Assembly: GCF_003149045.1 (NCBI RefSeq)
Contig: NZ_QGDU01000027.1
Location: forward strand, 1-54,638
Reading direction: 5' to 3'
DNA: 54,638 nt
Source: Fibrobacter sp. UWR4
GTDB taxonomy: Bacteria; Fibrobacterota; Fibrobacteria; Fibrobacterales; Fibrobacteraceae
Made by a program: the position numbers and the translations under genes. The notes under the pieces were generated by a model. That model was not told the DNA's origin and did not search any database. It saw nothing but the letters and a program-made list of their open reading frames with translations. This document shows positions 8,464 to 45,404 of the stretch, piece by piece (position 1 is the stretch's first letter; every line of letters starts with the position of its first letter).

Positions 8464-9399
8464 ATGACCCTTCAACAGTTGCGCTACGCCATCGGTATTG
8501 CCAAGGTGGGTTCCTTCAACAAGGCCGCCGAAGCCCTGTTCATTTCCCAGCCTTCCCTGACTGCCGCCATTCACGACCTGGAAGAGGAAATCGGAATTGT
8601 CATTTTCAACCGCTCCAGCCGCGGCGTGACCCTTACTCCCGAAGGTGAAGACTTTATCGCCCAGGCAAACCAGCTGTACCATCATTACGAAACGGTCCTT
8701 GAAAACTACAGCAAGGCGGAACAGAAAAAGAAGAAGTTCGCTGTTTCTACCCAGCATTACTCCTTTGCGGTCAAGTCCTTTGTGGATCTGGTGAAGCGTT
8801 ACAATATCGATGATTACGAATTCGCCATTCGTGAAACCAAGACCAAGGACGTCATTGACGATGTTGCCGCCCTCAAGAGTGAAATCGGCATTCTGTATCT
8901 CAGTGATTTTAACCGCAAGTACATCACGTATTTATTGAAAGAGCATGACCTGGAATTCCATAAGCTCATCGACTGCCATGCTTACGCCTACATGTGGAAG
9001 GACCATCCCTTGGCAAAGAAAAAATCCGTGAACTTGGATGACCTGAGTCAGTATCCGTGCCTCTCTTTTGAACAGAGCGAAAGTGGCAGCTATTACTTCG
9101 CCGAAGAGATTCTCAGTACCAACGAGTACCACAAGACGATTAAGGCCAATGACCGTGCCACCATGCTGAACCTGATGGTGGGCCTCAATGGATATACGCT
9201 ATGCTCCGGTATTATCAGCGAAGAGATCAACGGTTCCGATTATGTGGCCGTTCCCTTCAAGGACGCCAAGGGCGAAGATGACCGTACCATGGAAATCGGC
9301 TATATCACGAAGAAAAACTTCATGCTCAGCACGATTTGCCGGTTCTACATCCAGGAGATGGAGAAATACCTGCAGGCCTATACTCCGGCAAGGGGTTGA
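8464..9399 (+). CDS. LysR-family transcriptional regulator
   Basis: 311 residues, typical LTTR length. Residues 1-60 form the winged HTH (LQQLRYAIGIAKVGSFNKAA, SQPSLTAAIHDLEEEIG, FNRSSRGVTLTPEG). Residues about 90-300 form the effector-binding domain, with SEIGILYL and an IRETKTKDVIDDV block that resembles the MetR/CpsY-like (MtaR) LTTRs of Firmicutes more than CysB or OxyR. That subfamily guess is weak. The gene is divergent from the HTH/TPR regulator at 6980-8278, and palindromic half-sites lie between the two. A weak G4/C4 hairpin with a T9 run follows. The effector is not evident. Confidence 0.92.
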   Translation: MTLQQLRYAIGIAKVGSFNKAAEALFISQPSLTAAIHDLEEEIGIVIFNRSSRGVTLTPEGEDFIAQANQLYHHYETVLENYSKAEQKKKKFAVSTQHYSFAVKSFVDLVKRYNIDDYEFAIRETKTKDVIDDVAALKSEIGILYLSDFNRKYITYLLKEHDLEFHKLIDCHAYAYMWKDHPLAKKKSVNLDDLSQYPCLSFEQSESGSYYFAEEILSTNEYHKTIKANDRATMLNLMVGLNGYTLCSGIISEEINGSDYVAVPFKDAKGEDDRTMEIGYITKKNFMLSTICRFYIQEMEKYLQAYTPARG

Positions 9400-9459: not shown

Positions 9460-9494
9460 TTTTAGGCCATAATGTGACGAAATTCACATTGGGT

Positions 9495-9511
9495 TTTGAT
9501 AAAATGTCCAT
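9495..9511. promoter_or_regulatory. 17-bp 7-3-7 dyad, candidate hemicellulase-regulon operator (site 1)
   Basis: TTTGATA-AAA-TGTCCAT lies 88 bp upstream of the TIGR02147 gene at 9600. It has the same layout and distance as the sites before the hemicellulase genes, with the right arm identical to the perfect dyad at 11888. Confidence 0.6.
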
Positions 9512-9599
9512 AAGGATTTGTTTGGGTTGGTATTTTTTCGAGTCCGCATAGTCTATCTTAATGTTTGTAAAGATATAACAACGAAAGAAGAAGAAAATT

Positions 9600-10463
9600 A
9601 TGGTTACTTTCTCTGACATTGCGGACTATCGCGACTTCTTGAAGGACTATTACGACCGTAAAAAAGCCGAGATGCCCTTCTATAGTTATCGTATGATGGG
9701 CGACAAGCTGGGCTTGGACTCCAGCTATCTCTACCGTGTGCTTCAGAAGAAGCAGCATCTCCCCGCCCATGCTCTCCCGGCCGCCAAGGATATCCTGGCC
9801 CTCTCTGGCCGTGAAGCGGAATATTTTGACCTGTTGTTCTCCGCTGCAGTTACCAAGGACAAGGCTAAGCGCGAAGAAATCATGGCTAAGGCTCTCGCAC
9901 TTCGCGATGTGGAACGCCACAGCCTGCAGGCCGCAGAACTTAAACTCCTGGAAAACTGGTGGATTCCTGCTGTTCGTGCCTACCTGGACTTGAATGGCGG
10001 CGTGGTGAATATCAAGCAGATTGCCCGTGAAATCTGCCCGCCCATTACCGAAGCACAGGCTCAGGAAGCAATCGATACTTTGTTGGAAGTGGGACTTGTC
10101 AAGAAGATGGCGTCTGGCCGTCTTGCCCTGACTGAAGCCCATTTGACTGTTGGTGGCCCCGAAAAACGTGCCGCCATTGGCAAATTCCAGAAGCAGGTGC
10201 TTGCTTTGGCTAGTGATTCCATTGACAACCTTCCTGCAGAGGAACGAAATATTTCTACACTTACCCTGTCGGTCGATCAGGCGTGCTTTGATGATCTCCG
10301 CGATATGCTGAGAGAATTCCGCCGCCTGGTCCAAAAGCGAGTTGATAGCGCTAAGAATACTGATAGGGTGATGCAACTCTCTATGGCCTTCTACCCGGTT
10401 GCCCGTAAGGGTGGCGTGGGGTCTGCCGATAAGACGGAGGCTGGCGAAAAGGAGACTAAATGA
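9600..10463 (+). CDS. TIGR02147 family protein (paralog 2), in the hemicellulase regulon
   Basis: 287 residues, soluble, no signal peptide. It shares the family blocks of the paralog at 154: YRDFLKDYYDRKK at residues 8-20 and SYLYRVLQKKQHLP at about 42-55. The family is Fibrobacter-enriched and without a proven function. The stop overlaps the start of the lipoprotein at 10460 by 4 bp (ATGA), so the two are translationally coupled. Its upstream region carries the dyad shared with the secreted hemicellulases, so it is probably induced together with them. The pair stands at the head of the island. A role as a cytoplasmic regulator or partner of the coupled lipoprotein is a hypothesis. Confidence 0.88.
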   Translation: MVTFSDIADYRDFLKDYYDRKKAEMPFYSYRMMGDKLGLDSSYLYRVLQKKQHLPAHALPAAKDILALSGREAEYFDLLFSAAVTKDKAKREEIMAKALALRDVERHSLQAAELKLLENWWIPAVRAYLDLNGGVVNIKQIAREICPPITEAQAQEAIDTLLEVGLVKKMASGRLALTEAHLTVGGPEKRAAIGKFQKQVLALASDSIDNLPAEERNISTLTLSVDQACFDDLRDMLREFRRLVQKRVDSAKNTDRVMQLSMAFYPVARKGGVGSADKTEAGEKETK

Positions 10464-11752
10464 TGAAACGGGTGTGGAAAATTGGATCTGTCGTGGTAGC
10501 GTCCGCTTTGGGCGTGACCATGCTGGCGTGCTCGACGAACACTGCCGGTACGACCTTCGAGACAGAAAATGATATTGCACTTACCGTTCTGAATAGGGAC
10601 GGGTCTCCTGCAGCCAATGCTCGGGTGCTGGTCCGTCGTGTTGACTATGTAGCCGGCTATGTTGATCGTGATACTGATGACACTTATGGTGTTGAAGGCG
10701 AATCCCCCATTGGCGCTATGGATACCACGCTCGGTATCTTCAATGCGGAAACCGACGCCAATGGTCAGGTCTCCATTAAGGCGAGGATGAAGCCCACCAG
10801 CTATGTGGTGGAAGTTCGTGGCGAAACGGATAAGGCCATCTCTCGTGTGTCTGTTACCGAGAAGGATACCCTTTATCCTCTCGAAATAAAGCTTGCCGCT
10901 CCTGGTTCCGTTTCTGGTAGGGTTTACCTGCCTAACGGTGTCCGTACTGCTAGTGTGGGTGTCCAGGGTGTTGATTATGTTGCTCAGACCGATACTTTGG
11001 GTAACTTTACTTTTGAATCCCTGCCCGAAGGCACCTTCAATGTGGTTGGCTATGTCCTTAGAGACGCCGGCTCCAACATGGGGGACGAAGAAGATCGTCG
11101 TAAGGCTTTGCAGAACATCGGTTTCAAGTCTACCAGTGTTAAGTCCGAAAAGGAAACTTCTAACATTGCGATTGGTACCGCTCCGTTGGACACCACCGTC
11201 GTTTATCCTGAATACTTGTTCGAAAACTTTGAAAATGGTGTTTCCGGCTGGTATAAGAACTATTCCAAGTATTCTAATGCAGACCTGTCTGCTGACGATG
11301 CTGGTAAGGGTCGCGAGGGTAAGGCCGCTCACTTCGTATATTCCAATGACTCCCTGTATAGCTGGGCTCTCATGGGTTACGGATTTGTTGAAATGCAGGA
11401 CTTCTCTAGCCTGGATTCCATTGTGCTTTGGGCACGCGGTACCGTCGATAACGATACAACCCAGTGGATTAGCGTTTCCATGGACGTCCTTCTGGATGAA
11501 CCGGATAGCGCTGCGGGTCTCATCGAAGGTAAGGCTTGGGCTCACATCAATGTGAACAATCAGTGGAAGCGCATCGTGGTTACCCCGGCTGACTTCAGGG
11601 ATTCTACCGATACAAACGGTGGCAACCTGGGTTGGAATGCGGTCAAGGACCATATCACCAACTTCAATATCTTTGGTGGTGGCAAATCCAAGGAAATTTG
11701 GATTGACGACATCGAGTTCCACGGAGTTGAGGACTTCGACCGACCGTTATAA
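10460..11752 (+). CDS. Lipoprotein with carboxypeptidase-regulatory-like and CBM-like domains
   Basis: 430 residues. The signal peptide ends in GVTMLAC (Cys24). Two beta-sandwich modules of the carboxypeptidase regulatory-like type follow: residues about 38-140, starting at DIALTVLNRDGSPAANARV, and about 145-200, with GSVSGRVYLPNG and TDTLGNFTFESLPEG. Residues about 250-425 resemble a galactose-binding-like/CBM11-type domain (LFENFENGVSGWY, SSLDSIVLWARG, IWIDDIEF). There is no catalytic domain. It is coupled to the TIGR02147 gene by a 4-bp overlap. A cell-surface glycan-binding or sensing role is inferred from the CBM-like domain and the shared operator. Domain assignments come from motif reading only. 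Confidence 0.82.
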   Translation: MMKRVWKIGSVVVASALGVTMLACSTNTAGTTFETENDIALTVLNRDGSPAANARVLVRRVDYVAGYVDRDTDDTYGVEGESPIGAMDTTLGIFNAETDANGQVSIKARMKPTSYVVEVRGETDKAISRVSVTEKDTLYPLEIKLAAPGSVSGRVYLPNGVRTASVGVQGVDYVAQTDTLGNFTFESLPEGTFNVVGYVLRDAGSNMGDEEDRRKALQNIGFKSTSVKSEKETSNIAIGTAPLDTTVVYPEYLFENFENGVSGWYKNYSKYSNADLSADDAGKGREGKAAHFVYSNDSLYSWALMGYGFVEMQDFSSLDSIVLWARGTVDNDTTQWISVSMDVLLDEPDSAAGLIEGKAWAHINVNNQWKRIVVTPADFRDSTDTNGGNLGWNAVKDHITNFNIFGGGKSKEIWIDDIEFHGVEDFDRPL

Positions 11753-11860: not shown

Positions 11861-11887
11861 AAATTCTTCTTGTACTTTTATGGTTCT

Positions 11888-11904
11888 ATGGACAATCTGT
11901 CCAT
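11888..11904. promoter_or_regulatory. Perfect 7-3-7 dyad operator candidate (site 2)
   Basis: ATGGACA-ATC-TGTCCAT is a perfect inverted repeat. It lies 93 bp upstream of the ATG at 11998 and is the best-matched member of the series. Confidence 0.7.
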
Positions 11905-11997
11905 GGGACTTTTTTAATGCTTATATGAAATATGGGTTATGGGGATTAGATTATAGATGGGGCGGAATAGTCCGTCTCAATTGTGGATGTGTTTTTT

Positions 11998-14293
11998 ATG
12001 AATATTTTTAAAAAAGTAGGTGGCGCCTGCCTTACTGCAGGTCTTGTCACGTTCGGCTTGGCCGATAATCCCCTTTCTACCTATCATTATCTGGCTGACC
12101 CCTCTGCCGCTTCCGATGGTGATACTTTCTACGTCCTGACTGACGTGGATGACTATTCTCCTCAAAAGAACTACGACTATGATATTGTGGGTCTGAATGC
12201 GTTCTCATCCGAAGATATGAAGAACTGGACTGACCATGGCATGATTTTCCGTTCCAAGCGTGAGTTCGGTACTTATCCTAACAACACCTGGGCTTCCGGC
12301 ATTGCCGTCCATAAGGGCCGTATTTACATTGTGTACCCCCAATGGCGCCAGCGGTGTGGGTATGATTTCTGCCGACGATATTGCCGGCCCCTATCGTGAT
12401 CCTATCAAGGAAACTCACGGCGTAGAATACATTGCCGCCCACTATGGTTCCAGCGTTATTGGTGGGTGCGATCAGATCGCTCACTGTTTTGACCCGGGTA
12501 TCTTCATTGAAGAAGATGGTACCGGCTATGTGATTTTCGGCGGTGGTGAAAACAACGACCGTAAGTATGGAAACAACCTGGATATTGTCAAGTTTACGGA
12601 TAATAATGGTAAGATTACCGTAGATAAGAATTCCCTTAAGAGAATTTCTGCCCCCGGTTCTTTCGAAGCACCCTACATTCATAAGAAGGGTAGCACCTAT
12701 TACCTGAGTTTCAATACTCTGCCCCAGAAGATTGATTACAGCATGTCCAACAGCATCACGGGTCCTTATACTTTCGTGGGTACCGTGATTCCGGGCATTG
12801 CCGCAGTACCTGATGCCCATAACGAAGGTGGTAACAACCATCAGGGCTTTGCTGAATTCAAGGGCAAGTGGTACGCCGTTTATCACGATCGTCGCTTGGT
12901 TACTGCAGACGAACATCCGGGTTCCTGTACCCAGGCGGGCGTTTGCACCAACAGTCCCAACAAGGAAAACCATCGTAGTGTTTCCATCGATGAGTTGACC
13001 TGGAATGGCGACAAGATGAATCAGCTGACCTTCACCCGCGAAGGACCTAAGCAGATCAAGAATTTCGATCCCTACCGCACTTACAAGGCTCTTACCAGCT
13101 CCAAGCAGCGTAACGTCCGCAGCCGTACCGACTGGACCAAGGGCCAGCCCGTAAAGCATGTGCTGACTCCGCTGGGAACCAAGACTTCCTGGATCCGCGT
13201 CACTGGCGTAGACTTTGGCAAGGGTGCAGAAAACCTCCGCATCAAGGCCGCTAACGTTGGCGAAAACAACAAGGTGGAAATCCGCATTGGCAGCGAAACC
13301 GGTACTTTGGCAGGTTCTTGCGAACTTGCAAAGACCAGCGGCTGGCAGGCCTATACCGATAACGATTGCGAAATGAAGGGCCTTTCCGGCGTTGTGGATC
13401 AGGTGTTCTTCGTGTTCAAGGGCGCCAAGGACTCTACCATGGGCATTCTGGAATGGGAATTCCAGGGCGCCAAGCGTGAACCTGAACCCCAGACCGCTCA
13501 CAATGCTTCCAAGACTCCCTGGCCGGTTCCGGGTGTTGTGCAGGCCGAAGACTTTGACGATCCGGGCTATGGCGCAGGCAACGACTCCTACTACGAAGAC
13601 GATACCGACAACCATTCTTGCACCGATGCCGGCAAGGAAGCCGAATGCTCCAAGTATCGCGACGGTACCGGCGTAGATATTTACAAGAAGAGCGAAAAGA
13701 AGACCGTGGTTGGTTACATCAGAAAGGGAGAATGGCTTGAATACTCCGTGAATGCCGCTGCCGCTGGTGATTATACCATGTTCATTGCGGCCGCTTCTAA
13801 TGGCGGTGCAAGCCTCACGGTTTCCGTCAATGGCGATGAGGCTGGCGAAGTTACTGTTCCTGCAGCAACTTCCTCTAGCGAAGAAGAAAACTATGATGAC
13901 TACAACAAGGTTTCTACCAATGTTACCTTGAAGGAAGGCGTGAACATTATTCGCATCACTGCAGCTGCAGACTGGTTCGACCTTGACTACTTCAACCTGG
14001 TGAAGGGCAAGGATTCCGAGGATGATAATCCTCTTGGTGAACAGGTTGTTGTTCCCGCAGATACTTCTGACAAGGATCCTCTGGCAATAGGTTTGCGCAC
14101 AGATCTTCGTCTGAATCTTGGCGCTTCCGCTGAATACCATGTGTTCGACCTTCAGGGCCACAAGCTGGGTTCTGTTCGTTTCGAAGGCACTGGTGCCGTT
14201 CTGGCTTTGAAGTCCGCCGGCTTTGCCAAGGGTGTTTATATGCTTAAGCAGGTCAATGGCTCCAGGCAGATGATGGTAAGCACTTCCAAGTAG
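11998..14293 (+). pseudogene. GH43 arabinofuranosidase-like enzyme with CBM6 modules, frameshifted
   Basis: The reading frame starts at ATG 11998 with a signal peptide and STYHYLADP, where the Asp is the likely GH43 general base. It breaks at the CCCCC run at 12336-12340. Reading four C instead of five joins IYIVYP to NGASGVGMISADD and restores a ~764-residue protein that aligns with the intact GH43 at 14501. Downstream are the second Asp (CFDPGIFIEEDG), the acid Glu (SFEAPYIHK), a first CBM6-like region (GVDFGKGAENL), a second CBM6 (VVQAEDFDDPG), and a C-terminal paralogous module (YHVFDLQGHKLG to the end). By relation to the neighbour, it probably removed arabinose from arabinoxylan. It is either a true frameshift or a homopolymer sequencing error; the rest of the frame is clean over 650 codons, which favours error or a very recent mutation. 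Confidence 0.85.
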
Positions 14294-14372: not shown

Positions 14373-14387
14373 TGTTTTGAGGATGTC

Positions 14388-14404
14388 ATTGTCAAATTGT
14401 CCAT
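14388..14404. promoter_or_regulatory. 7-3-7 dyad operator candidate (site 3)
   Basis: ATTGTCA-AAT-TGTCCAT, 96 bp upstream of the GH43 start at 14501. The right arm is identical to the perfect dyad at 11888; the left arm matches 5 of 7. Confidence 0.6.
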
Positions 14405-14500
14405 AGTAAGTGTGTTTTGACTAGGAATATTTGGTTAAATGTTGGGTAATTTATAAGCGGGAGATTCTGTGTGGTGCAGAATCCTAATATGGGATGACAT

Positions 14501-16819
14501 ATGAAACAGATTTTTAAGGGTGCTTTAGCTCTTACGGCTGCTTTTGGCTTGGGTTCTACGGCATTTGCCTACAACCCGATTTCTACCTATCATTACTTGG
14601 CAGACCCCGGTGCGGCCGCCGATGATGAATACTTCTATATCATTACGGACTCCGATGATCCGGCTGCTTATAATGCAACGGGCTATAATATTAAAGCTCT
14701 CTATGGTTTCCGTTCCAAGGATATGCAGAACTGGACCGACTTCGGCATCATTTATGATGCCCGCCAGGTGAGCGGTATCAATGACATTTGGGCTGCAGGC
14801 ATTGCCGCTGATTCCAAGACTGGCAAGCTCTATATTGTGTTCCCCGATGGCGGTGGTGGCGGCATTGGCTATATCAAGGCTGACAGCATGGCTGGTCCTT
14901 GGTCCAATGCGGTTGGCCGAGGTAGCGACAAACTTGTGGGCGGTCGTAACGGACTTATAGGCTGCGATGGCGTTTCCTGGTGCTTTGATCCGGGTATTTT
15001 CATCGATGACGACGGCACCACCTATGTAACATGGGGTGGTGGCGAAAGCGCTAGCCGCCCGAATACCGACAACTTTGACGTGGTGAAGCTGAATGACGCC
15101 AAGGATGCTCCGGTGGGTAATGGCTCCCATGTGAAAGTGAATGGTCTTTCTACCCGTAAGATGCTGGAAGCTTCCTACATCCATAAGCACAAGGGTACTT
15201 ACTATTTCTCCTACAGTACCGGCTGGCAGCAGGGTGCACCTACCATCGACTATGGTATGGGTTCTAGCCCCATGGGTCCCTTCACCTGGAAGGGTACTAT
15301 TCTTGGCGACCCCAGCATGAATGGCAAGAGCATCAACGGCAACAACAATCATCACGGTATTGCCGAATTCAAGGGCCATTCCTATGTGGTTTATCATGAT
15401 CGCCGTATTGCCAAGGGCCATGACGGTCTTGAAATTATTCCTGCCGATGACGGTAGGCCCAATCCGGATCCGGGTTATCACCGTAGTGTTTCTGTAGACG
15501 AAATGTTCTACAATGCCGACGGTACCATCAAGCAGGTGGTTTGTACCAACGAAGGCCCGAAGCAGATTGAAAACTTCGATCCCTATGACTGGTATCCGGC
15601 TCTCACCAGCTCCAAGCAGAAGGGCGTTCGCAGCCGTTCTCTTTATGCTCCTGGCAAGGTTTCCGGAAGCCTTCTGCTTCCTCTCGCCAGCCGCAGCGAA
15701 TCCTGGATTCGTGTTTCCGGTGTTGACTTCGGTAAGGGTGCAACAGGCTTCTCCGTAGAAGCAGCAAGTACCGCCGACAACAACAAGATTGAAATCCGCA
15801 AGGGCTCTGCAACAGGTACTCTTGCTGGTACCTGTACCTTGAAGAAGACTGGTTCCAAGACTTCCTTTGCAGAAACCTCCTGCGATGTGGATGGACTCTC
15901 TGGCATTGTAGAACAGTTGTTCTTGGTATTCAAGGGCTCTCAGGATTCTACCATGGCTATCAAGGGCTGGGGCTTCGAAGGCAGCGGCAAGACTCCTCCG
16001 GAACCGCAGAAGGCTTTTGGCGGCAAGGCCTGGGCTATTCCTGGCACCATTCAGATGGAAGATTTCGACGTGCCGGGTACTGGCCGTGGCGATGAATATG
16101 CTTCCTACAGTGAAAATGACGAAGAAAATCATGGCGATAGCGACTACCGTAAGGAAGACGCTCCGTCCGTTGATCTTTACAAGAAGTCCAACAACCGCAT
16201 TGTGGTGGGCTACATCCAGAAGGATGAATGGCTGGAATATACCGTGAACGTTGCAAAGGCTGGCGATTACACCATGTTTGCCGCTGTAGCTTCCGACGGA
16301 GGCTCTTCCTTCAAGCTTTCCATGGACGGCAAGGACATTACCGAAGAGGTGAAGGTTCCTGCAGCCAAGAAGGAAGAAGGGGCTGAACAGAACTTCGATG
16401 ACTACAACAAGGTAAGTGCAAATGTTAGCCTCACTGCAGGTGAACATGTCCTCCGCTTTACCGCAACCGCCGACTGGTTCGATATCGACTACATCAATTT
16501 CGTCGAAGGTAAGGATGCGAAGGACGATCTGCCCATTAATCCTCCTCAGGATTCTATCCCGACTGTTGTGAATCCCAGTCCGGATGATTCCACTAAGGAT
16601 GCGATTCTTGGTCAGAGCATGAAGCTGGATATTCAGGGCAAGACCGTGTTCGAAGTCTTTGACATCCATGGTAACAAGATTGCAAGTGTAATCGCCTCTA
16701 CTATGGTGGAAGCTGCAAGCAAGTGGCAGAAATCTGCTGACACTAAGAACGCTCAGGGCGTAAACTTGATTCGCAATAAGGCAACCGGCATGGTTTCCAA
16801 GGTGCGTGTAGCCCGCTAA
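14501..16819 (+). CDS. Secreted GH43 arabinoxylan arabinofuranohydrolase-like enzyme with CBM6
   Basis: 772 residues: signal peptide 1-23, GH43 five-bladed propeller about 25-355, a first CBM6-like sandwich about 375-495, a canonical CBM6 about 508-668, a Pro/Asp linker, and a C-terminal paralogous module about 690-772 (VFEVFDIHGNKIAS). The GH43 triad is visible: Asp35 (YHYLADPG), Asp163 (CFDPGIFIDDDG) and Glu223 (MLEASYIHK). The family covers arabinofuranosidases, xylosidases and arabinanases; the CBM6 and the xylan-oriented neighbours favour debranching of arabinoxylan. The C-terminal module is the kind called FPm-1 in F. succinogenes S85 hemicellulases. It also resembles type IX secretion tails, which would place the enzyme on the cell surface. 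The gene has its own operator and terminator. Confidence 0.92.
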   Translation: MKQIFKGALALTAAFGLGSTAFAYNPISTYHYLADPGAAADDEYFYIITDSDDPAAYNATGYNIKALYGFRSKDMQNWTDFGIIYDARQVSGINDIWAAGIAADSKTGKLYIVFPDGGGGGIGYIKADSMAGPWSNAVGRGSDKLVGGRNGLIGCDGVSWCFDPGIFIDDDGTTYVTWGGGESASRPNTDNFDVVKLNDAKDAPVGNGSHVKVNGLSTRKMLEASYIHKHKGTYYFSYSTGWQQGAPTIDYGMGSSPMGPFTWKGTILGDPSMNGKSINGNNNHHGIAEFKGHSYVVYHDRRIAKGHDGLEIIPADDGRPNPDPGYHRSVSVDEMFYNADGTIKQVVCTNEGPKQIENFDPYDWYPALTSSKQKGVRSRSLYAPGKVSGSLLLPLASRSESWIRVSGVDFGKGATGFSVEAASTADNNKIEIRKGSATGTLAGTCTLKKTGSKTSFAETSCDVDGLSGIVEQLFLVFKGSQDSTMAIKGWGFEGSGKTPPEPQKAFGGKAWAIPGTIQMEDFDVPGTGRGDEYASYSENDEENHGDSDYRKEDAPSVDLYKKSNNRIVVGYIQKDEWLEYTVNVAKAGDYTMFAAVASDGGSSFKLSMDGKDITEEVKVPAAKKEEGAEQNFDDYNKVSANVSLTAGEHVLRFTATADWFDIDYINFVEGKDAKDDLPINPPQDSIPTVVNPSPDDSTKDAILGQSMKLDIQGKTVFEVFDIHGNKIASVIASTMVEAASKWQKSADTKNAQGVNLIRNKATGMVSKVRVAR

Positions 16820-16880: not shown

Positions 16881-16920
16881 CAAAAAACGCTTGTTCTTGC
16901 CGTAAAATGGCGTTTTTGGC

Positions 16921-16937
16921 ATTGATAAATTGTCCAT
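16921..16937. promoter_or_regulatory. 7-3-7 dyad operator candidate (site 4)
   Basis: ATTGATA-AAT-TGTCCAT, 88 bp upstream of the GH30 start at 17026. Confidence 0.62.
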
Positions 16938-17025
16938 AACAATTCCAGATGGGATTATTCGCTTTGGGATAAACAAGGGTATCTTTAGATTAGTGGTTGT
17001 GGTTAACCGCGATGGGATGTGTATT

Positions 17026-22989: not shown

Positions 22990-23168
22990 GATTTCCCAAA
23001 GGTTGGTTGTCTTACGGATTTAAAGGTAGAAATACCCGATGTTTTTTCCAATTCAAGCGCTTGGTTCTCCTGGATCCGTATAAAAAACGCAAATTATGCG
23101 TAAAAAGCTCGAAAAGTGCCGAAAATGACGCAAAAATGAAAATAAATGGGGTTTGTAAAATCCAGTTT

Positions 23169-23185
23169 ATTGACATTTTATCCAT
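23169..23185. promoter_or_regulatory. 7-3-7 dyad operator candidate (site 5)
   Basis: ATTGACA-TTT-TATCCAT, 89 bp upstream of the CE6 start at 23275. Spacing and outer bases match the series; the spacer is TTT instead of AAA. Confidence 0.58.
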
Positions 23186-23274
23186 GAATGATACGTTTTT
23201 TGAGGGTATATTTAAGGGGGTATGGAATAGATTTGGTAATAGAGATTTTGGGAAAACTCAAAAAGAGGTGTGTT

Positions 23275-24952: not shown

Positions 24953-26554
24953 ATGAACTTTTTCCATAAAGTGACTGCAGCAGCCTGCTGCGTATTTGGA
25001 TTGACGATGCTTGCTCCTCAGGTGGAAGCGGCTCCTAATCCGAATTTCCACATTTACATTGCCTATGGCCAGTCCAACATGGCGGGTAACGGTGAAATCG
25101 TTCCTGCTCAGGACCAGGCTTAGAATCCCAAGAATTTTATCATGTTGGCATCCCATAATGCAAATGCGGGTAATCGTACGGGTAGTACCACCCAGTCCAT
25201 CAAGACTGGCGAATGGTATCCTGCTATTCCTCCTATGTTCCACGCTTTTGAACAGCTTTCTCCTGCAGACTACTTTGGCCGAGCCATGGTGGATTCCTTG
25301 CCGGGCGTAACTGTGGGTATTATCCCGGTGGCCGTGGGTGGCGTAAGCATTCGCGCCTTCCTTCTGGACCAATATGCAGCCTACTTTGATGGCGATGGCA
25401 GAAGCTTTAAGGGCTGGGCGGGAGACTACGGCGGAAATCCCATGGGCCGTATCCTGGAACTGGGCAAGAAAGCTAAGGAAGTAGGCGTCATCAAGGGTGT
25501 TATTTTCCATCAGGGCGAAAGTGACGGTGTGGACGATAACTGGCGTAATCGTGTTTATGCTTCTTATAAGACCATTATCGATGAACTCGGTTTGGACGAA
25601 AACGAAGTTCCCTTCGTTGCGGGCGAAATGCTTCAGGCGCAGGGTGCCTGCTGCGGTAGCAAGAATGGTGGTATCGCACAGCTCAAGACCAAGTTCAAGA
25701 AGTTCGGTTTGGCTTCCTCCCAGGGACTTGCCGGTAATGGTAAGGATCCCTACCACTTTGGACGTTCTGGCGTGATTGAACTGGGTAAGCGTTATGCCTC
25801 CGAAATGCTGAAACTTATTGATAGGACCATTGATCCCGATGCTCCGGCAGTGAACGTGGTGGATCCTACTCTGTCTACTGTTCCTGACGCTCCTCCCGAG
25901 GAATATGGCCCTTATTACGGCGAACCTATGACTATTCCTGGCCAGATTCAGGCAGAGGATTACAACAAGGGTGGCGCAGGCAAGGCTTACTACGACTTGG
26001 ATAAGGGCAATAGCGAAGGCAAGTACCGTAAGGACGATGTGGACGTGAAGCAGCCCAACAAGGGTATGGCTGTGGGTTCCTGCCAAAAGGGTGAATGGCT
26101 TAAGTATACCGTGAAGGTCGAAGAAGCTGGCGAATACGAAATTTCTGCCCTTATTGCAGGCGACAACAAGACTGGTGGCTTTATCCTCTACATGGACGAC
26201 GAGCGCATCGGTGACGAAATTGTCAACGCCGGCCTGGGCTGGGATGACGACGGTTACTCTATGGTTAGCGGTGGCAAGGCTTCCCTGGCTGCAGGCGAAC
26301 ACGAATTGAAACTGGAAATCACCAACGACTGGGTGGATATTGACTATGTGGAGTTCAAGAAGGTCGAGGCAAAAACCGAAGACAAGGATGCCATCGGTAA
26401 TAGCCTTAAGATTTCCGACGCACTGAACATGGACAACGCCCAGTACTTCGATATGACGGGTAATCGCGTAAGCAAGGTTGTCGCTCAGAAGCAGGGTGTA
26501 TTCCTGGTTCGTATTCCGGGTGTAAAAACCTTCATTGTCCGTAACGAAAAGTAA
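24953..26554 (+). pseudogene. Second CE6 acetylxylan esterase with CBM6, interrupted by one in-frame TAG
   Basis: From ATG 24953 the signal peptide and the Ser41 block (IAYGQSNMAG) are nearly identical to the upstream CE6. Codon 57 (25121-25123) is TAG. The same frame then runs on without interruption to 26554 (533 codons in all), with the HQGESDG block, the C-terminal His region (DPYHFGRSG), CBM6 (QIQAEDYNKGG) and a C-terminal module (AQYFDMTGNRVSK). The catalytic Ser lies before the stop and the His after it, so neither fragment alone could work. An internal ATG at 25142 would give a protein without signal peptide or nucleophile. This is a recent nonsense mutation, a sequencing error or readthrough. 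Confidence 0.85.
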
Positions 26555-28897: not shown

Positions 28898-28925
28898 AAA
28901 AACAAAGAACTTATTCAAACACCCC

Positions 28926-28942
28926 GTGGACATTTTATCAAC
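28926..28942. promoter_or_regulatory. 7-3-7 dyad operator candidate (site 6), inverted and inside a terminator
   Basis: GTGGACA-TTT-TATCAAC is the reverse-complement orientation of the sites at 33268 and 36089. It lies 95 bp upstream of the GH43 start at 29038 and overlaps the left arm of the terminator at 28928-28979. Confidence 0.6.
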
Positions 28943-28979
28943 GAAACGTTGTTTCGAAGGTAAAATGTCCTTTTTTTTT
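28928..28979 (+). terminator. Terminator of the GH-A gene, overlapping an operator
   Basis: Perfect 10-bp arms GGACATTTTA (28928-28937) and TAAAATGTCC (28961-28970) enclose a second small stem (CGAAAC / GTTTCG) and are followed by nine T. Confidence 0.85.
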
Positions 28980-31589: not shown

Positions 31590-31614
31590 CCCTATGGATA
31601 AAATGTCCATAGGG
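31590..31614. promoter_or_regulatory. Extended dyad operator (site 7), 11-bp arms
   Basis: The core ATGGATA-AAA-TGTCCAT at 31594-31610 extends to arms CCCTATGGATA / TGTCCATAGGG with one mismatch, followed by TTTTT. It may double as the terminator of the upstream GH43 gene. It lies 97 bp before the CE1 start. Confidence 0.68.
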
Positions 31615-31707: not shown

Positions 31708-33264
31708 ATGTTTTGTAGAAAATTCTTGACAGCCACAGCTGTGGCTATAGTCTCTTTTGTTGGTGCAACAAACTCTTTCGCAGGAAATGCAAAAGCCGAA
31801 ACTTTGAATGGTCGATCCATTTATGTTTATGCTCCTGCAAATATCGAAAAAAATAAGCCGCTGTTGATTTCTTGCCATGGCATGAATCAGGATGCCGCCT
31901 ACCAGAGCAATCAGGCCCGCTGGGAAGATATTGCGGATACGGCCCGCTTTACGGTGGTGTATCCCAACGGTATCAACAAGGGCTGGGACCTTGGTAGCGA
32001 TAAGGATATCAACTTGATGAAGGACATCATTAACGAAATGTCCAAGCGCTATCAGATTGATCTTTCCCGCGTTTATTTGTCCGGCTTCAGCATGGGTGGC
32101 ATGTTTACCTATTATGCCATGGGCAAGATGGCCGACAAGATTGCGGCTTTCGCCCCTGTTTCCGGCTACATGATGGGTGGTCCGGGCAAGGCCCAGCGTC
32201 CTGTACCTATTATTCATCATCATGGTACCAGCGATGATGTGGTTACTTACAGTAACGTGATGACTCACATCAATGCTTATAAGAACCAGTTTAACTGCCC
32301 TGCAAATCCGTCTGAAACAAAAACTTTCCCGGCAAATTCCAAGTCCGAAATGTGGGGCCCCTGTGACGGTGGCGTTAGCGTCAAGCTTGTCACTTTAGGG
32401 GGCAAGGGTCACTGGCATTCCAATGATGACGCCGTGGTTCATACTAGCAAGTCTATCTGGAATTTCATCAAGAATTACACTCTGGACGGTCCTGCTGATG
32501 CCGTGGAACCGGAACCGCAGAAGCCTTTCAATGGCAGAGCCATTGCTATTCCTGGTAAGGTTGAGGCCGAAGATTTTGATATTCCCGGTGTAGGCCGAAA
32601 TGCTGATGGCTCTACAAACCAGTCTTATAGTGTGGGAACTTCTGAAAACAAGGGCGATTCCGATTACCGTAAGGATACTCCCGTCAGCATCTACAAGAAG
32701 GCAACCGGCAACATTATTGGCTACAATGCGGAAGGCAACTGGTACGAATACACTGTTGATGTGGAGGCCGATGGCGAGTATACGGTCTATGCAGCCGTTG
32801 CATCTGCTAACAATACTTCCAGTTTCCAGCTTTCCATGGATGGTAAGGAAATCTCTGAAAAGATTTCTGTTCCTGCAGCTAAGGCCGGCGAAGATAACTA
32901 CGACGATTACAATAAGGTGAAATTTGACGTAAAACTGTCCAAGGGACAGCATATCCTTCGCCTCACAGTAACAGGCGCATGGTTTGATATTGACTACATG
33001 ACCTTTGTTGCAAAGGGCGAAGCTGATCCGGAACCGATTAAAACGACTACTGAGGATCCGGAAAAGTGTGGCGCTGCTGCTGAAAAGTGCGACGATACTC
33101 CCGATGCAATTGGTTCTCGTATCGTGCTGCAGGGTTCTGACTCTAGGTCCTATGGGGTCTATAGTCTTACGGGTGCATTCCTAGGAAAGGTTTTGCCGAA
33201 AAAGCCGGGTGTGTACATGGTTCGTACCGGTAACGCCTTAAAAATAATTCGAGTCAACAAATAA
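31708..33264 (+). CDS. Secreted CE1-type esterase (feruloyl/acetyl esterase) with CBM6
   Basis: 518 residues. Signal peptide 1-25; alpha/beta-hydrolase of the CE1/PHB-depolymerase-like type about 30-250. The nucleophile is Ser128 in LSGFSMGGMF, the acid is in GTSDDVV (about 176), and the base His is in GKGHWHS (235 or 237). CE1 members split ferulate or acetate esters from arabinoxylan, which suits the other genes here; the exact ester is not readable. CBM6 is about 275-440 (KVEAEDFDIPG), followed by a linker with two Cys pairs and a C-terminal paralogous module (YGVYSLTGAFLGKV to the end). It has its own operator 97 bp upstream. Confidence 0.9.
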   Translation: MFCRKFLTATAVAIVSFVGATNSFAGNAKAETLNGRSIYVYAPANIEKNKPLLISCHGMNQDAAYQSNQARWEDIADTARFTVVYPNGINKGWDLGSDKDINLMKDIINEMSKRYQIDLSRVYLSGFSMGGMFTYYAMGKMADKIAAFAPVSGYMMGGPGKAQRPVPIIHHHGTSDDVVTYSNVMTHINAYKNQFNCPANPSETKTFPANSKSEMWGPCDGGVSVKLVTLGGKGHWHSNDDAVVHTSKSIWNFIKNYTLDGPADAVEPEPQKPFNGRAIAIPGKVEAEDFDIPGVGRNADGSTNQSYSVGTSENKGDSDYRKDTPVSIYKKATGNIIGYNAEGNWYEYTVDVEADGEYTVYAAVASANNTSSFQLSMDGKEISEKISVPAAKAGEDNYDDYNKVKFDVKLSKGQHILRLTVTGAWFDIDYMTFVAKGEADPEPIKTTTEDPEKCGAAAEKCDDTPDAIGSRIVLQGSDSRSYGVYSLTGAFLGKVLPKKPGVYMVRTGNALKIIRVNK

Positions 33265-33267
33265 GCT

Positions 33268-33284
33268 GTTGATAAAACGTCCAT
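33268..33284. promoter_or_regulatory. 7-3-7 dyad operator candidate (site 8)
   Basis: GTTGATA-AAA-CGTCCAT starts 4 bp after the CE1 stop and ends 75 bp before the GH27 start. It is identical to the site at 36089. Confidence 0.65.
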
Positions 33285-33359
33285 GAAAGGTGTGGCTTGA
33301 CCACGCCTTTTTTGTGTTTTAACAGGTAGTTTTGTATTGAAAAAATCAGGAGTATAAAG

Positions 33360-35327
33360 ATGTCTAAAAATTCAAGTTTTGCTCGTCGCGCTTTAGCAAC
33401 CGTAGCCTTTACCGCTATGGGCTTTGCTGCCTCTGCAAACGCCCACCCCGATAGCCTGGTGCTTACGCCCCCTCTGGGCTGGAACAGCTGGAACGTGTTC
33501 CACGAAAATATTAACGAAACCCAGATTAAGGAAGTGGCCGACGCCATGGTTTCTTCTGGCCTTCGCGACGCTGGCTACATCTATCTGAACTTGGATGACA
33601 ACTGGATGGATACCAAACGCGACGCCAATGGTGACCTCCAGAACCATCCCAAGACTTTCCCCAGTGGCATGAAGGCTCTGGCCGATTACATTCATAAGAA
33701 GGGCCTGAAGTTCGGCGTGTATGGCGACCGCGGTAAACGTACTTGCCATCATTACAACAGCAACTGGGACAGTGAAAACGGCTCCTACATGCACGAAGAG
33801 CAGGACGCCAAGAAGTTTGCTGAGTGGGGCGTTGACTACCTGAAGTACGATAACTGCGACCCGGCTCCCGGTTCCAATCAGGAAGCGGATTACACCCGCA
33901 TGAGTAAGGCTCTCCGCAATTCCGGCCGCGACATCGTGTTCAGCATTTGCGCCTGGGAATATAAGGACTGGATGCCGAAAATCGCCCATCTGTGGCGTAC
34001 CACTTTCGATATTGGCCCCGAATGGAGATCTACCTCCTGGTACCGCGGCGTTTACGAAATTATCGATGCCAATGACAAGTACTGGAAGATTGCAAAGCCG
34101 GGTAACTGGAATGACCCGGACATGCTGGAAGTGGATAACAGAAACCTGACTTACGAAGAACAGAAGTCCCAGATGACCATGTGGTCCATTATGGCGGCTC
34201 CCATCATGATCAGTTCCGATGTCCGCAAGATGAGCGACCAGGTGAAGGATCTTTACCTGAACAAGGATATGATTGCCATTAATCAGGACTCCCTGGGCGT
34301 TCAGGGCCATCGAATTTCCAATGTGAACGGCAAGCAGGTCTGGACCAAGCCCTTGCGCAATGGTGACCTCGCTGTAGCCCTCCTGAATGACAATACCTCT
34401 ACCCAGACTATCGAAGTCAACTTTAAGGATATTGGCGTAGAAGGCGAGGTGGAAGTCCGTGATGCCTGGCAGAAGAAGGATCTTGGTCCCAGATCTAGTG
34501 TTTCGGCAGAAGTTCCTGCTCATGGCTCTGTGTTGCTCCGCCTTGTTGTAAAGCCTGTTCCCCGTGAACCCTTTGGCGGTAAGGCTGCTACAATTCCTGG
34601 CAAGATCGAGATGGAAAACTTCGACATTCCGGGTACTGGCGCAGGTAACGCCTCCTTCAACGAAATGGATTCCGAAAACCACGGCGATAGCGATCTTCGC
34701 CCGGGTACCGGTGTGGACCTCTACAAGAAGGCAACTGGCGTGATTGTGGGCTACAACCAGGCCGGCGAATGGCTGGAATACACCGTGAACGTCGCTGAAA
34801 CGGGCGAATACACCTTGTTTGCCGCTGTCGCATCTGCTGGTGGTTCCGCTTTCTCTCTCTCCATGGATGGCAAGGCTATTACCGAAGTTCTTGATGTTCC
34901 TGCCGCAGCTTCCGGCGAAGATAGCTATGACGACTACAATAAGGTGGAAGCCAAGGTGAACCTCACCAAGGGTGAACATATCCTCCGCTTTACTGTAGAA
35001 AAGGACTGGATGGACATTGACTACATCAACTTCACGACCGATGGTATTGATACGGATCCGATCTGTAAGGATGTCAACGGCAGTATCATTGAATGTGAGG
35101 AAAATCCTGAAGATCCTGAGGATCCGAAGGCAATTGCCAAGGTTACTGGACTCGTCAAGGCTAGCGAAAGCTATAACGTATTTGGCGCTATCGGTAAGTT
35201 CATGGGGCGCGTAGATGTCGTGGGTAACAACATGACTGAAGCTCTCAAGAATGCTGGCTTTGCCAAGGGCGTCTATATGGTCCGTGGCGTGAACGGCGGA
35301 AAAGTTTCCCGAGTTCTGGTAAAGTAA
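33360..35327 (+). CDS. Secreted GH27 alpha-galactosidase with CBM6
   Basis: 655 residues. Signal peptide 1-28; GH27 (beta/alpha)8 domain about 35-310 plus a C-terminal sheet to about 405. Family marks are PPLGWNSWNVF, LDDNWMD, GLKFGVYGDRG and VDYLKYDNC with nucleophile Asp164. The probable acid/base is Asp217 in LWRTTFDIGPEW, and NWNDPDMLEV follows. It releases terminal alpha-galactose, here most likely from galactosylated xylan or galactomannan side chains. CBM6 is about 412-570 (KIEMENFDIPG), followed by an EDPEDPE linker and a C-terminal paralogous module (YNVFGAIGKFMGRV to the end). One to two residues of the GH27 pattern vary but all catalytic residues are present. Confidence 0.93.
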   Translation: MSKNSSFARRALATVAFTAMGFAASANAHPDSLVLTPPLGWNSWNVFHENINETQIKEVADAMVSSGLRDAGYIYLNLDDNWMDTKRDANGDLQNHPKTFPSGMKALADYIHKKGLKFGVYGDRGKRTCHHYNSNWDSENGSYMHEEQDAKKFAEWGVDYLKYDNCDPAPGSNQEADYTRMSKALRNSGRDIVFSICAWEYKDWMPKIAHLWRTTFDIGPEWRSTSWYRGVYEIIDANDKYWKIAKPGNWNDPDMLEVDNRNLTYEEQKSQMTMWSIMAAPIMISSDVRKMSDQVKDLYLNKDMIAINQDSLGVQGHRISNVNGKQVWTKPLRNGDLAVALLNDNTSTQTIEVNFKDIGVEGEVEVRDAWQKKDLGPRSSVSAEVPAHGSVLLRLVVKPVPREPFGGKAATIPGKIEMENFDIPGTGAGNASFNEMDSENHGDSDLRPGTGVDLYKKATGVIVGYNQAGEWLEYTVNVAETGEYTLFAAVASAGGSAFSLSMDGKAITEVLDVPAAASGEDSYDDYNKVEAKVNLTKGEHILRFTVEKDWMDIDYINFTTDGIDTDPICKDVNGSIIECEENPEDPEDPKAIAKVTGLVKASESYNVFGAIGKFMGRVDVVGNNMTEALKNAGFAKGVYMVRGVNGGKVSRVLVK

Positions 35328-36056: not shown

Positions 36057-36088
36057 CTGTTATTGTAGATTTTTTATAGAGTCACATC

Positions 36089-36105
36089 GTTGATAAAACG
36101 TCCAT
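36089..36105. promoter_or_regulatory. 7-3-7 dyad operator candidate (site 9)
   Basis: GTTGATA-AAA-CGTCCAT, identical to the site at 33268, 121 bp upstream of the GH5 start. It lies just downstream of the barrel pseudogene. Confidence 0.63.
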
Positions 36106-36226
36106 GAAAGATTTCTCGGGAGGGTATATTAGCCCTCTTTTTTGAGGTATTTTTCTTCTTGTACGGTTGTTGTGGTTGGCAACCTGATGCGCTTTGTGGT
36201 GGTAGCGTGTCAACAGAGAGGAAAAT

Positions 36227-38056
36227 ATGGGAATGTTAAAGAGTTTTAAAGGCTCGGTTTCTGCCGTGGCCGTTGCAGCCTTTATCGCAGGCTTTGCTAC
36301 ACAATCTTTCGCTGTTACAAATCAGTTCCGTGGTACAAACTGGGCTGACAAACGCGATAACTTCGTTTCCGATGTGTTGAAACTTTCCGGTATGACTGGA
36401 ACTGAAGACTATCAGGCGGCCTATGCGCTGTCCGATCGCGTCATGAGCCAGTTTGTAGAAAAACTGGGCATCAACAGTTTGCGTATTCCTATTAACGAAC
36501 CTACGGCTTTAAAGGCCTGGAGTTCCTACAAGGGCATTATCGATGGCATCTTGGCTCATGGCCGTATGCTTATCGGTTACTGGGGCCCTGCACAGCCCGC
36601 TGGCCCCAAGAATATGGACGACTGGTGGAAAATGTGGGATACCGTTGTCAAGGAATACGGCAGCAATCCCGATGCCTACTTTGAAATCTTTAACGAACCC
36701 CACATGTACAGCAAGACTGAACTTCGCGACTTGTACGCAAAGTGGCTGGCTCGTTATCCGGATCTTCCCCGCGATCATGTTTTGCTGGATGGTTCCGGCT
36801 TGGCATGGAATGTGCCTGATATTGCCGACGACTCCCGCTTTGACGGCTGCCTTTTTGCAGTGCACGAATACACCTTCTGGAACATGAGTATTACCACCGA
36901 ACAGGGCTGGATGAACAGTTTCAAGGGCAAGGTGGGCAAGTATGCCGACCGCACCGTGGCAACCGAATGGGGTGGCGCCATGGGACCTGGTGACAAGAAC
37001 GGTGTCCATTACGAAATCATGGATTACAACGATCCCAATCCCACCAACTACTTCATGGCTTACATTCGCGGCATGTCCGAACAGCTGCGTCAATGGAAGA
37101 TGGGTAGCTTCTACTGGGTGGGCCTCCGCGATGGAGACTGGTACAGCATGGTGACCCGTTCTGGGGAAGGTGCCAACACCACCTTGAATATTGTGAATCA
37201 GTCCGGCGTAGATCGCATGCAGTATTCCTGGACCGATACGGTTGAAGTGAAGCCTGTTCCTCAGGAACCCTTCGGCGGTTATGATGCGTCTGGTGCTGCT
37301 GTCGCAGGCAAGGCCTGGGCAATTCCGGGTAAAATCGAGGCAGAAGATTTTGACATTCCGGGCGTTGGCAACGGTAACGATTCCTATAAGGATAGCGACA
37401 AGGAGAATCACGGCGATTCCGACTACCGCAAGGATACCGGCGTTGACCTGTACAAGAAACCCAATGACCGCGTTATCGTGGGCTACAATGCAGAAGGTGA
37501 ATGGCTGGAATACACGGTGAATGTTGCTGAAAACGGTGATTACACCATGTTTGCCGCGGTGGCATCTGCAAACAATACCTCCAGCTTCAAGCTCTCCATG
37601 GATGGCAAGGACATTACCGATACCATCAAGGTTCCCCAGGCTACTGCTGGCGAAGACAATTACGACGACTACAACAAGGTATCCGCCAACGTAACGCTAG
37701 AAGCCGGTGAACATGTACTGCGCTTCACGGTGACCGGCAGCTGGATGGACATCGACTACATCAACTTCGTGAAGGGTAAGGACGGCAAGGACGATGCTCC
37801 CATCGAAGGAAAGGAAGAAGTTGATCCGGTTCCCGTTGGTCCTTGCGACGACTGCGATGCAATTGGCCAGACTCTGGAATTGAACCGCGACATCGTCCAG
37901 AATTATCGCGTATTCTCTATGAGCGGAAAGCTTCTGGGAATGGTTCGCGGCAACGCTTTTGAATTGGCTGCCCGTACTCGCCAGCTGGTAAAGACCGACG
38001 GCATATTCATTGCAAAACCTGCAAAGGGTGCCGCAACGATTGTGAACTTGAAATAA
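36227..38056 (+). CDS. Secreted GH5 endo-glycanase with CBM6
   Basis: 609 residues. ATG 36227 follows GAGAGGAAAAT; the Met two codons on is an alternative. Signal peptide 1-29; GH5 (beta/alpha)8 domain about 32-345. Marks are GINSLRIPIN, acid/base Glu157 in YFEIFNEPHMY, AVHEYTFWN, and nucleophile Glu247 in TVATEWGGAMG. The subfamily is not clear by eye, so cellulase, xylanase or mannanase activity is open. CBM6 is about 365-520 (KIEAEDFDIPG), followed by a linker with CDDCD and a C-terminal paralogous module (YRVFSMSGKLLGMV to the end). It is the last gene of the island that shares the operator. Confidence 0.92.
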   Translation: MGMLKSFKGSVSAVAVAAFIAGFATQSFAVTNQFRGTNWADKRDNFVSDVLKLSGMTGTEDYQAAYALSDRVMSQFVEKLGINSLRIPINEPTALKAWSSYKGIIDGILAHGRMLIGYWGPAQPAGPKNMDDWWKMWDTVVKEYGSNPDAYFEIFNEPHMYSKTELRDLYAKWLARYPDLPRDHVLLDGSGLAWNVPDIADDSRFDGCLFAVHEYTFWNMSITTEQGWMNSFKGKVGKYADRTVATEWGGAMGPGDKNGVHYEIMDYNDPNPTNYFMAYIRGMSEQLRQWKMGSFYWVGLRDGDWYSMVTRSGEGANTTLNIVNQSGVDRMQYSWTDTVEVKPVPQEPFGGYDASGAAVAGKAWAIPGKIEAEDFDIPGVGNGNDSYKDSDKENHGDSDYRKDTGVDLYKKPNDRVIVGYNAEGEWLEYTVNVAENGDYTMFAAVASANNTSSFKLSMDGKDITDTIKVPQATAGEDNYDDYNKVSANVTLEAGEHVLRFTVTGSWMDIDYINFVKGKDGKDDAPIEGKEEVDPVPVGPCDDCDAIGQTLELNRDIVQNYRVFSMSGKLLGMVRGNAFELAARTRQLVKTDGIFIAKPAKGAATIVNLK

Positions 38057-44000: not shown

Positions 44001-44169
44001 TGGCGGCTTCTGCAATGTTGGCTCCTACGCTTACTTCTGGAGTGCTACTGAGTACAGTGCTAGTAGCGCCTACTACTGGGACATGTATGCGAGCGATGCG
44101 GACCTCAACATCAACTTCGACTTCAAGAACTTCGGGTTCTCTGTGCGTTGCCTCCAGGACCTGAATTGA
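41098..44169 (+). CDS. DGR target: large FISUMP lipoprotein with variable C-terminus
   Basis: 1023 residues. Lipobox LIAC (Cys24). Residues about 130-160 are a collagen-like Gly-X-Y stretch (GADGKDGVDGAKGDAGETGK). About 215-480 is the SQKGPF domain shared with the lipoprotein at 971. About 530-790 contains repeated units ending in YYxCxxxxW (YYQCQEKTRRW, YYMCKNNKW, YYVCDANQW). About 831-1023 is a FISUMP domain (IGTQVWMAENLQYAD, CPEGWHIPT). Residues 960-1021 are encoded by the variable repeat, so the ligand-facing end of the FISUMP fold is diversified. Lipid anchor, stalk and variable tip fit a surface receptor with changeable binding; the ligand is unknown. It is last in an operon with two exported proteins. 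Confidence 0.93.
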   Translation: MNNKMTKVFGTFGVAFSLAGLIACGDEVTQINQTGLDMVSSVEDLPKCTSDNEGEQIIVKDDGTIRYCSDGKWYATMGSAGSGAADTIFVSKNDTVFVGGDFACTTEKLKDDSGIKIICNGDSIGVVLNGADGKDGVDGAKGDAGETGKPGENGQDGAGCTVANENGALTITCGDKSVVMKLGEDGSLIGGEEIVLDSEQVAVSLDSVKGASQKGPFLSGSKVLVKELRDGRSLTQTGNNFDGKILNDKGEFRITARMLVSQYVMLEANGYYRNEVTGENSSSPLTLFGITDVTGRDIVNINLLTHLEYERVYYLVTKEGYTVKKAKKKAQQEIFDILHIDNSNFSNSEDLSIAGSSDEDGALLAFSILFQGDRSVSQLTELLTRVSTAMEKEGKWEDATAKAEIADWAMAADTSDRLADIRGKVDAWKLGSMVPKFEPYIRNFWVEELKLGICDAGKAGSISFVANANSKYYAKTYTDTTKTKVRFVCAENANGENEWRIATDFEKDTYNWKAGTDGKTMNGQVTGKVYIYDGLGKYTADHKAGWRTASKPESVYGGCTEISYEKIVKYTGADSSGYYQCQEKTRRWEQISSAVVDIANLTEGDDGFAQWGSVNTNVCYVYDTAPAYNGWRTGQSTDCTLGLNGCTKAVEAKGEMKYAKNGNYYMCKNNKWNLISDDVQKNTYKLTCNADNDGSVIPGTADTWYYVCDANQWRKATQAEYEACYLDGVCNACTQSTEGTFATFDKVVYGCASNAWVKTKISAENAKTKCDRENPGNVMFDVDTIAVNGVVANTIDWLCTEKGWHRASWEEYTLENWKAHLEKTLPKLDSFQDARDGRWYKKVTIGTQVWMAENLQYADSVATLNLKGNSWCYNHKPENCETMGRYYTWTAAMNINKSYQSTSVPAGMIQNPHRGICPEGWHIPTSSEWSTMNSKSGGYAAQQAIGNPGWPNATNASGFTALPAGDYSGGFCNVGSYAYFWSATEYSASSAYYWDMYASDADLNINFDFKNFGFSVRCLQDLN
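43974..44160 (+). other. DGR variable repeat (VR)
   Basis: 187 nt encoding residues 960-1021 of the lipoprotein. Aligned to the template at 45220-45400, it differs at 20 positions. All 20 are A in the template and become T (12) or G (8); no other base changes. Seventeen of the 21 AAC/AAT template codons are altered. VR also has two extra codons (6 nt) near 44123. The 3' end from GGGTTCTCTGTG to CAGGAC is identical and would be the homing-initiation side. Confidence 0.96.
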
Positions 44170-44245: not shown

Positions 44246-44286
44246 TCCGAAAATTTTTGAAAAAAAATGAGCTAGACGAATAGTAA

Positions 44287-45108: not shown

Positions 45109-45219
45109 CTTGTGCCTTGATAGAGTAAACAAAACGATTCGGTGGCTCGTCCTGCATTATAAGTGTCTGGAAACCTGCTGAATCACTGCTTAGCGGCTGC
45201 TGTCATTTCCATCGGGGCG

Positions 45220-45400: not shown

Positions 45401-45404
45401 TCCT

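Follow-up and report, generated by a model that had tools for sequence, protein, structure and literature searches.

The TIGR02147 locus and its products

The window analysed here is the whole of a 54,638-nucleotide contig (C27) of a Fibrobacter genome of 3.6 Mb in 93 contigs. It carries a pair of genes for a TIGR02147/DUF4423 protein and a predicted lipoprotein, with a stop/start overlap of 4 bp (ATGA) between them (Table 1). The CBM6-bearing hemicellulase genes 3' of the pair encode GH43, GH43, GH30, two CE6-type, GH39-like, GH43, CE1-like, GH27 and GH5 proteins. Two frames, 11983-12399 and 12260-14293, make up the first GH43 gene and correspond to successive stretches of the GH43 profile; the split is due to either a frameshift or a sequencing error.

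Table 1. Features of the gene pair and of the hemicellulase island, in window coordinates
Feature	Position	Strand	Predicted -10	Basis or remark
CRP-type dyad TGTGACGAAATTCACA, TGTGA-N6-TCACA	9473..9488			21 bp upstream of operator start; sole zero-mismatch match in the window
Operator of TIGR02147/lipoprotein pair	9494..9512	+		kept in 67/67 ortholog promoters scored
Predicted -10 of pair, TATCTT	9554..9559	+		51 bp past dyad centre
TIGR02147/DUF4423 protein, 287 aa	9600..10463	+		profile matches, predicted model; proposed activator
Lipoprotein, 430 aa	10460..11752	+		lipobox Cys24, ETEN box, two Ig-like domains, C-terminal CBM11-like domain (247-425)
Operator before first GH43-CBM6	11887..11905	+	11947	dyad pattern, matrix
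GH43-CBM6 gene, frameshift-split	11998..14293	+		Pfam
Operator before GH43-CBM6 (14501-16819)	14387..14405	+	14447	pattern, matrix, Pfam
Operator before GH30-CBM6 (to 19233)	16920..16938	+	16980	pattern, matrix, Pfam
Operator before CE6 (SASA)-CBM6 (to 24936)	23168..23186	+	23228	pattern, matrix, Pfam
Second SASA-CBM6 gene, after CE6 (SASA)-CBM6	25142-26554			Pfam
Operator before GH43-CBM6 (to 31401)	28925..28943	+	28985	pattern, matrix, Pfam
Operator before CE1-like esterase-CBM6 (31708-33264)	31593..31611	+	31653	pattern, matrix, Pfam
Operator before GH27-CBM6 (33360-35327)	33267..33285	+	33327	pattern, matrix, Pfam
Operator before GH5-CBM6 (36227-38056)	36088..36106	+	36148	pattern, matrix, Pfam

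TIGR02147 and DUF4423 are the sole families in Pfam and NCBIfam matched by the first protein of the pair. The TIGR02147 profile is matched over its full length with 196.7 bits (curated cut-off 50) and the DUF4423 profile with 101.2 bits (cut-off 30), so the protein is a full-length member of the family. Its nearest named relative, at 95% identity, comes from a Fibrobacter MAG from horse faeces. The AlphaFold2 model (mean pLDDT 83, pTM 0.55) contains a predicted XRE-like HTH domain at residues 7-90, with the HTH at 30-48, and a predicted winged helix at residues 105-187 (121-177 in one reading). In VIA-align, HigA and P22 c2 come closest to the HTH, and ArsR/MarR proteins to the winged helix; these are local matches only, with a Z of about 8 for both domains, which is modest and in the range of common arrangements. 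A Foldseek search with the whole chain gave no significant match (best E 0.07, none below 0.001), and the CapH N-terminal domain was matched with a TM-score of 0.70 on the target. The predicted N-terminal fold thus resembles those of the XRE-type regulators HigA, P22 c2 and CapH. Unlike them, the TIGR02147 protein adds a winged helix and the DUF4423 helices, and it is proposed here as an activator rather than an antitoxin or a repressor. No hydrophobic segment was found in the protein (maximum mean hydropathy 0.75). It is predicted to be soluble and cytoplasmic, with two domains of DNA-binding type.

The second protein is a predicted lipoprotein. Its lipobox cysteine is invariant in 30 orthologs, as is the ETEN box among the lipoprotein orthologs. 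In the predicted model (pLDDT 81), two Ig-like domains are accompanied by the C-terminal domain, for which the top Foldseek match is CBM11 (E 1.9e-8). VIA-align of this modelled domain gave Z values of 17.0-17.3 with CBM11 crystal structures, compared with 14.6 for the next fold; with the C. thermocellum CBM11, the Z is 17.3 and 159 of 170 residues are aligned. A Pfam search of the lipoprotein found no catalytic family. The first-pass annotation had described a CBM11-like domain and no catalytic site, and both descriptions agree with these results. The modelled domain shares the beta-sandwich fold with CBM11 of Lic26A-Cel5E, but sequence identity is 15%, and here the domain comes with a lipid anchor and two Ig-like domains and no enzyme. 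Bacteroides SGBP-B (7k44), ranked fourth by Foldseek, is likewise a lipoprotein without a catalytic domain in a glycan-degrading locus. In contrast to SGBP-B, no SusCD system was noted here, and the lipoprotein gene is co-transcribed with the TIGR02147 gene. The simplest reading is that the lipoprotein is a regulon member that would bind glycans at the surface.

An operator common to the pair and the hemicellulase genes

A search of the window with TTGATAAAATGTCCATA, the sequence in front of the pair, gave 8 matches with at most 3 mismatches, against 0.12 expected, and 8 was reached in 0 of 100 shuffles. A search with the dyad pattern raised the number of sites to nine by adding a perfect dyad at 11888. 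The general form is a 19-bp dyad, YATGGAC-N5-GTCCATR. One of the nine sites stands before the pair and eight stand before hemicellulase genes, namely three GH43 genes and the GH30, CE6, CE1-like, GH27 and GH5 genes. The earlier proposals that the pair carries the operator of the enzymes, heads the hemicellulase island and is a member of its regulon are upheld in silico. The operator of the third GH43 gene also forms the left arm of a hairpin (28925-28970) that resembles a terminator and has a T run behind it, so that operator and terminator seem to overlap.

Genome-wide, TTGATAAAATGTCCATA has 19 matches, mostly on C27 and on contig C24; at this loose setting the reversed pattern has 15, so it is the stricter tests that carry weight. 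A stricter form of the dyad has 14 matches in the source genome compared with 2 for its reverse. We also built a symmetric weight matrix, trained solely on the promoters of 46 TIGR02147 orthologs. The matrix scan covered 164 kb of selected stretches of the source genome, and the whole genome was covered by pattern. The pair and the eight enzyme promoters in the window score at least 17. The window's own promoter is among the 46 used for training, so the score of the pair is not independent, while those of the enzyme sites are.

Nine more operator promoters lie beyond the window, bringing the total in the source genome to 18 sites. Six with a score of at least 17 are on C24, which holds a second hemicellulase island with GH43, GH2, GH95, GH10 and GH141 genes. 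They are found at 1266 (GH141), 6711 (GH43), 9054 (GH2), 13219 (GH95), 18454 (GH10) and 22566 (no gene). The others at this threshold are at C8 39609 (GH10) and at C6 96958 and C14 65782, before two esterases (alpha/beta-hydrolase lipoproteins). Further matrix matches are one of 15.9 inside a gene at 32028 and two weak ones (11.7 and 12.1), and the reversed control over the same 164 kb gave 3 matches scoring at least 9. The site at C24 22566 (L047:2566-2704) consists of an operator and a -10 that lead to no gene; next comes a terminator-like hairpin. Its operator matches that of the C8 GH10 gene, and it may therefore be the remnant of a lost or moved xylanase gene.

Promoter geometry

The first-pass annotation had placed the operator of the pair at the same distance as those of the enzymes. 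Measured to the seven clear starts, the distance from the dyad centre is 84-130 bp (97 bp for the pair), and the exact invariant is the distance to the -10 hexamer, 51 bp at 9/9 window sites. Across the source genome, a TAnnnT hexamer begins exactly 51 bp past the dyad centre at 17 of the 18 sites; the next best offset accounts for 4 of 18. The exception is the C14 site, which reads TATATC. The same spacing is found at 11/12 sites in another genome, G005, and in 24/29 ortholog promoters of the same genus, and in other genera the -10 lies at 50 or 51 bp in 14 of 16 ortholog promoters. A -35 box was sought with spacers of 16-18, and the mean match was 1.6-1.9 of 6 against a background of 1.66; the 11 G005 sites in this analysis had been picked for having a -10.

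If the start of the -10 hexamer is taken as -12, the dyad centre would fall some 62-63 bp before the transcription start. Such a class I position is known from CRP. The predicted promoters share with those of CRP-type class I activators (dyad near -61.5) a fixed helical position of the site relative to the -10 and a poor -35 region. The TIGR02147 protein differs from CRP in having no CRP domain; it has the predicted XRE-like HTH and winged helix instead, and its dyad is of a 6-7-6 type, TATGGA-N7-TCCATA. A dyad near -62 or -63 together with the lack of a -35 box is the geometry of an activator. It is very improbable that the TIGR02147 protein is instead a repressor of the regulon that is relieved by an inducer. 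Many repressors are autoregulated, and many proteins with an XRE-type HTH act as repressors, but the dyad lies clear of the -10/-35 region and the promoters are of the activator type.

Conservation and co-occurrence of operator and ortholog

Most genomes of the genus have a TIGR02147 ortholog with at least 81% identity, and the next paralog is at 42-48%. The dyad is found at the ortholog's own promoter in 30/30 loci of the same genus and in 16/16 loci of other genera, down to 53% identity. In a set that overlaps these 30 and 16, all 67 ortholog promoters on named contigs have a matrix score of at least 18. In nearly all ortholog loci a lipoprotein gene comes next, usually overlapping by 4 bp, and its product has the AG-type and ETEN box. 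G005 has the pair at the front of a single island, where nearly all of the 13 sites precede hydrolase genes.

The number of sites follows the presence of the ortholog. When the site was counted in an IUPAC form, the 91 genomes that have the ortholog gave 788 matches compared with 95 for the reversed control (8.3 times), whereas 22 genomes without it gave 49 compared with 28 (1.75 times). In one genus (g4; 12 genomes), which has no ortholog, there are 26 matches and 19 for the reverse. A rank test of ortholog presence against sites gave p = 4e-10, which is not a true probability since the genomes are related. Two genomes without the ortholog still have sites (G006 and G052); they are 65% and 72% complete. 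The related genomes are not independent, and site and gene may have disappeared together because the whole island was lost.

Other TIGR02147 groups and candidate binders of the dyad

The source genome has 26 TIGR02147 copies (L001-L026). A lipoprotein gene lies directly 3' of 20 of the 26, in most cases overlapping by 4 bp, and an AG...E..N-type box follows the lipobox in 13 of 18 TIGR02147-linked lipoproteins (loose pattern). The orthologs of one paralog, L025, have another dyad, CTTTGC-N7-GCAAAG or CATTG..CAATG, likewise in a 19-bp layout and about 100 bp before the start codon. By a strict count, this dyad stands 50 or 51 bp ahead of a TAnnnT hexamer in 16/30 promoters. Two paralogs with different recognition helices thus have different dyads in the same frame, as expected of a DNA-binding family. 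In the source genome, the full L025 dyad is found at L025's own promoter only, and we do not claim a second regulon under it. The L023 group was considered as a further test and set aside, as it is present in 2 genomes only, too few for a footprint. Promoters of the MKPI clade (L005 group) are laid out differently, with ATAC-N5-GTAT (by eye), so the architecture of operator and -10 may not hold for the whole family.

These results bear on whether the TIGR02147 protein is the factor that binds the dyad. The pair could be a regulon member only, with another factor, encoded elsewhere, bound at the dyad and the TIGR02147 protein acting otherwise, for example post-transcriptionally on the lipoprotein. 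The site is indeed equally present at the enzyme promoters, and Bd3700, a Bdellovibrio protein of the same family, was reported just as an induced protein (PMC12546842). This reading is nevertheless unlikely, given that the sites track the TIGR02147 ortholog across genera, that the L025 group has its own dyad at equal spacing, and that the protein is predicted to have two domains of DNA-binding type. The neighbouring LysR gene (8464-9399) was considered as the source of the dyad binder and rejected, with a homologue beside the pair in just 4 of the ortholog loci searched and none upstream of the pair in G005.

A possible CRP-like input

A CRP-like site with at most 2 mismatches lies within 60 bp upstream of the operator in 35 of 67 ortholog promoters, against 1.6 expected. 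The spacings are mostly -21, -30/-32 and -42, about one helical turn apart. No such site was found at the enzyme promoters. The source genome has one Crp-type HTH match, at C6:58569, and its recognition helix, RETVSR, is close to that of E. coli CRP. These sequence matches suggest a cascade in which Crp would act on the TIGR02147 gene and the TIGR02147 protein on the hemicellulase genes. The presence of CRP-like sites in about half of the ortholog promoters makes a global growth or starvation signal a better-supported input than xylan.

Discussion

PMC3079729 calls the regulation of enzyme genes in F. succinogenes S85, both cellulases and hemicellulases, unanswered; F. succinogenes is a main rumen fibre degrader. 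Our literature search found no paper on TIGR02147, one on DUF4423 and no biochemical report of DNA binding for any TIGR02147 protein. The family as a whole has no assigned function, whereas the present results link one of its orthologous groups to an operator and a regulon, and a role can thereby be suggested for the family. Taken together, sequence, promoter geometry, co-occurrence and predicted folds make it likely that the TIGR02147 protein binds the operator and activates the hemicellulase regulon.

In the proposed mechanism, the TIGR02147 protein, presumably as a dimer, would bind the 19-bp dyad YATGGAC-N5-GTCCATR, whose centre lies about 62-63 bp ahead of the predicted transcription start. 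From this class I position, it would recruit RNA polymerase to promoters with no -35 box, and would thus switch on its own operon and about 17 other promoters, nearly all of them for xylan or hemicellulose hydrolases. Growth limitation may be relayed by Crp to the TIGR02147 gene and from there to the hemicellulases. The co-translated lipoprotein would display its CBM11-like domain at the cell surface.

Published expression data, which come from S85 and not from the source genome, can be compared with this mechanism. In PMC6204037, co-expression cluster 16 contains CBM6, CE6, GH10 and GH30, and cluster 17 contains CBM6, GH27, GH43, GH95 and GH141; these families match those of the operator-bearing genes in our source genome. 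The same source has the CBM6 hemicellulases higher at slow growth on several sugars, even glucose or cellobiose. Several enzymes of the cluster are also raised on cellulose (PMC6851124). According to PMC3079729, S85 hydrolyses xylan without using the products. Slow-growth expression on any sugar in an organism that does not use xylan fits a growth-state switch better than a xylan switch. The S85 cluster Fisuc_1762-1804 contains the same enzyme types (CBM6 GH43, CE6, GH27 and GH10), but there its regulation is attributed to two response regulators, and the passages found mention neither the TIGR02147 pair nor the operator (PMC3079729).

The first-pass annotation had further suggested a sensor role, in which the lipoprotein would detect xylan fragments at the cell surface and signal to the TIGR02147 protein, which would then control the island. 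Such a sensor would extend the proposed mechanism rather than compete with it. Regulon membership stands, and in silico the TIGR02147 protein is the most likely regulator; the xylan signal from the lipoprotein is the part that finds no support. The tight pairing of the two genes in nearly all orthologs, the CBM11-like domain, the invariant ETEN and the recurrent AG...E..N-type box would all suit a sensor. The pairing is family-wide rather than specific to the island and is therefore no evidence for xylan in particular. In addition, it is not apparent how an exported lipoprotein would signal to a protein that is soluble and cytoplasmic. The glycan regulators of the HTCS and ECF sigma/anti-sigma types have a membrane-spanning sensor linked to the regulator, and the TIGR02147 protein has no such link. 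The S85 observations above, on the unused xylan products and on hemicellulase levels on glucose and cellobiose, also speak against it, and a sensor pair of this kind seems rather doubtful.

Our analysis names a candidate activator, an operator, a promoter architecture and about 18 target promoters, all of which are directly testable. More tentatively, TIGR02147/DUF4423 proteins might be a large, lineage-expanded family of one-component activators that have their own dyads, in many cases at a constant spacing from the -10, each co-translated with a boxed lipoprotein of differing outer domain. It is possible that such pairs of surface lipoprotein and activator make up a new type of regulatory module in fibre degraders.

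Elsewhere in the window, a diversity-generating retroelement occupies 43974-46460. Its reverse transcriptase ORF lies at 45333-46460, the template repeat at about 45220-45400 and the variable repeat at 43974-44160, where a FISUMP-domain gene (41098-44169) ends. Between the two repeats, 20/20 substitutions are at template adenines.
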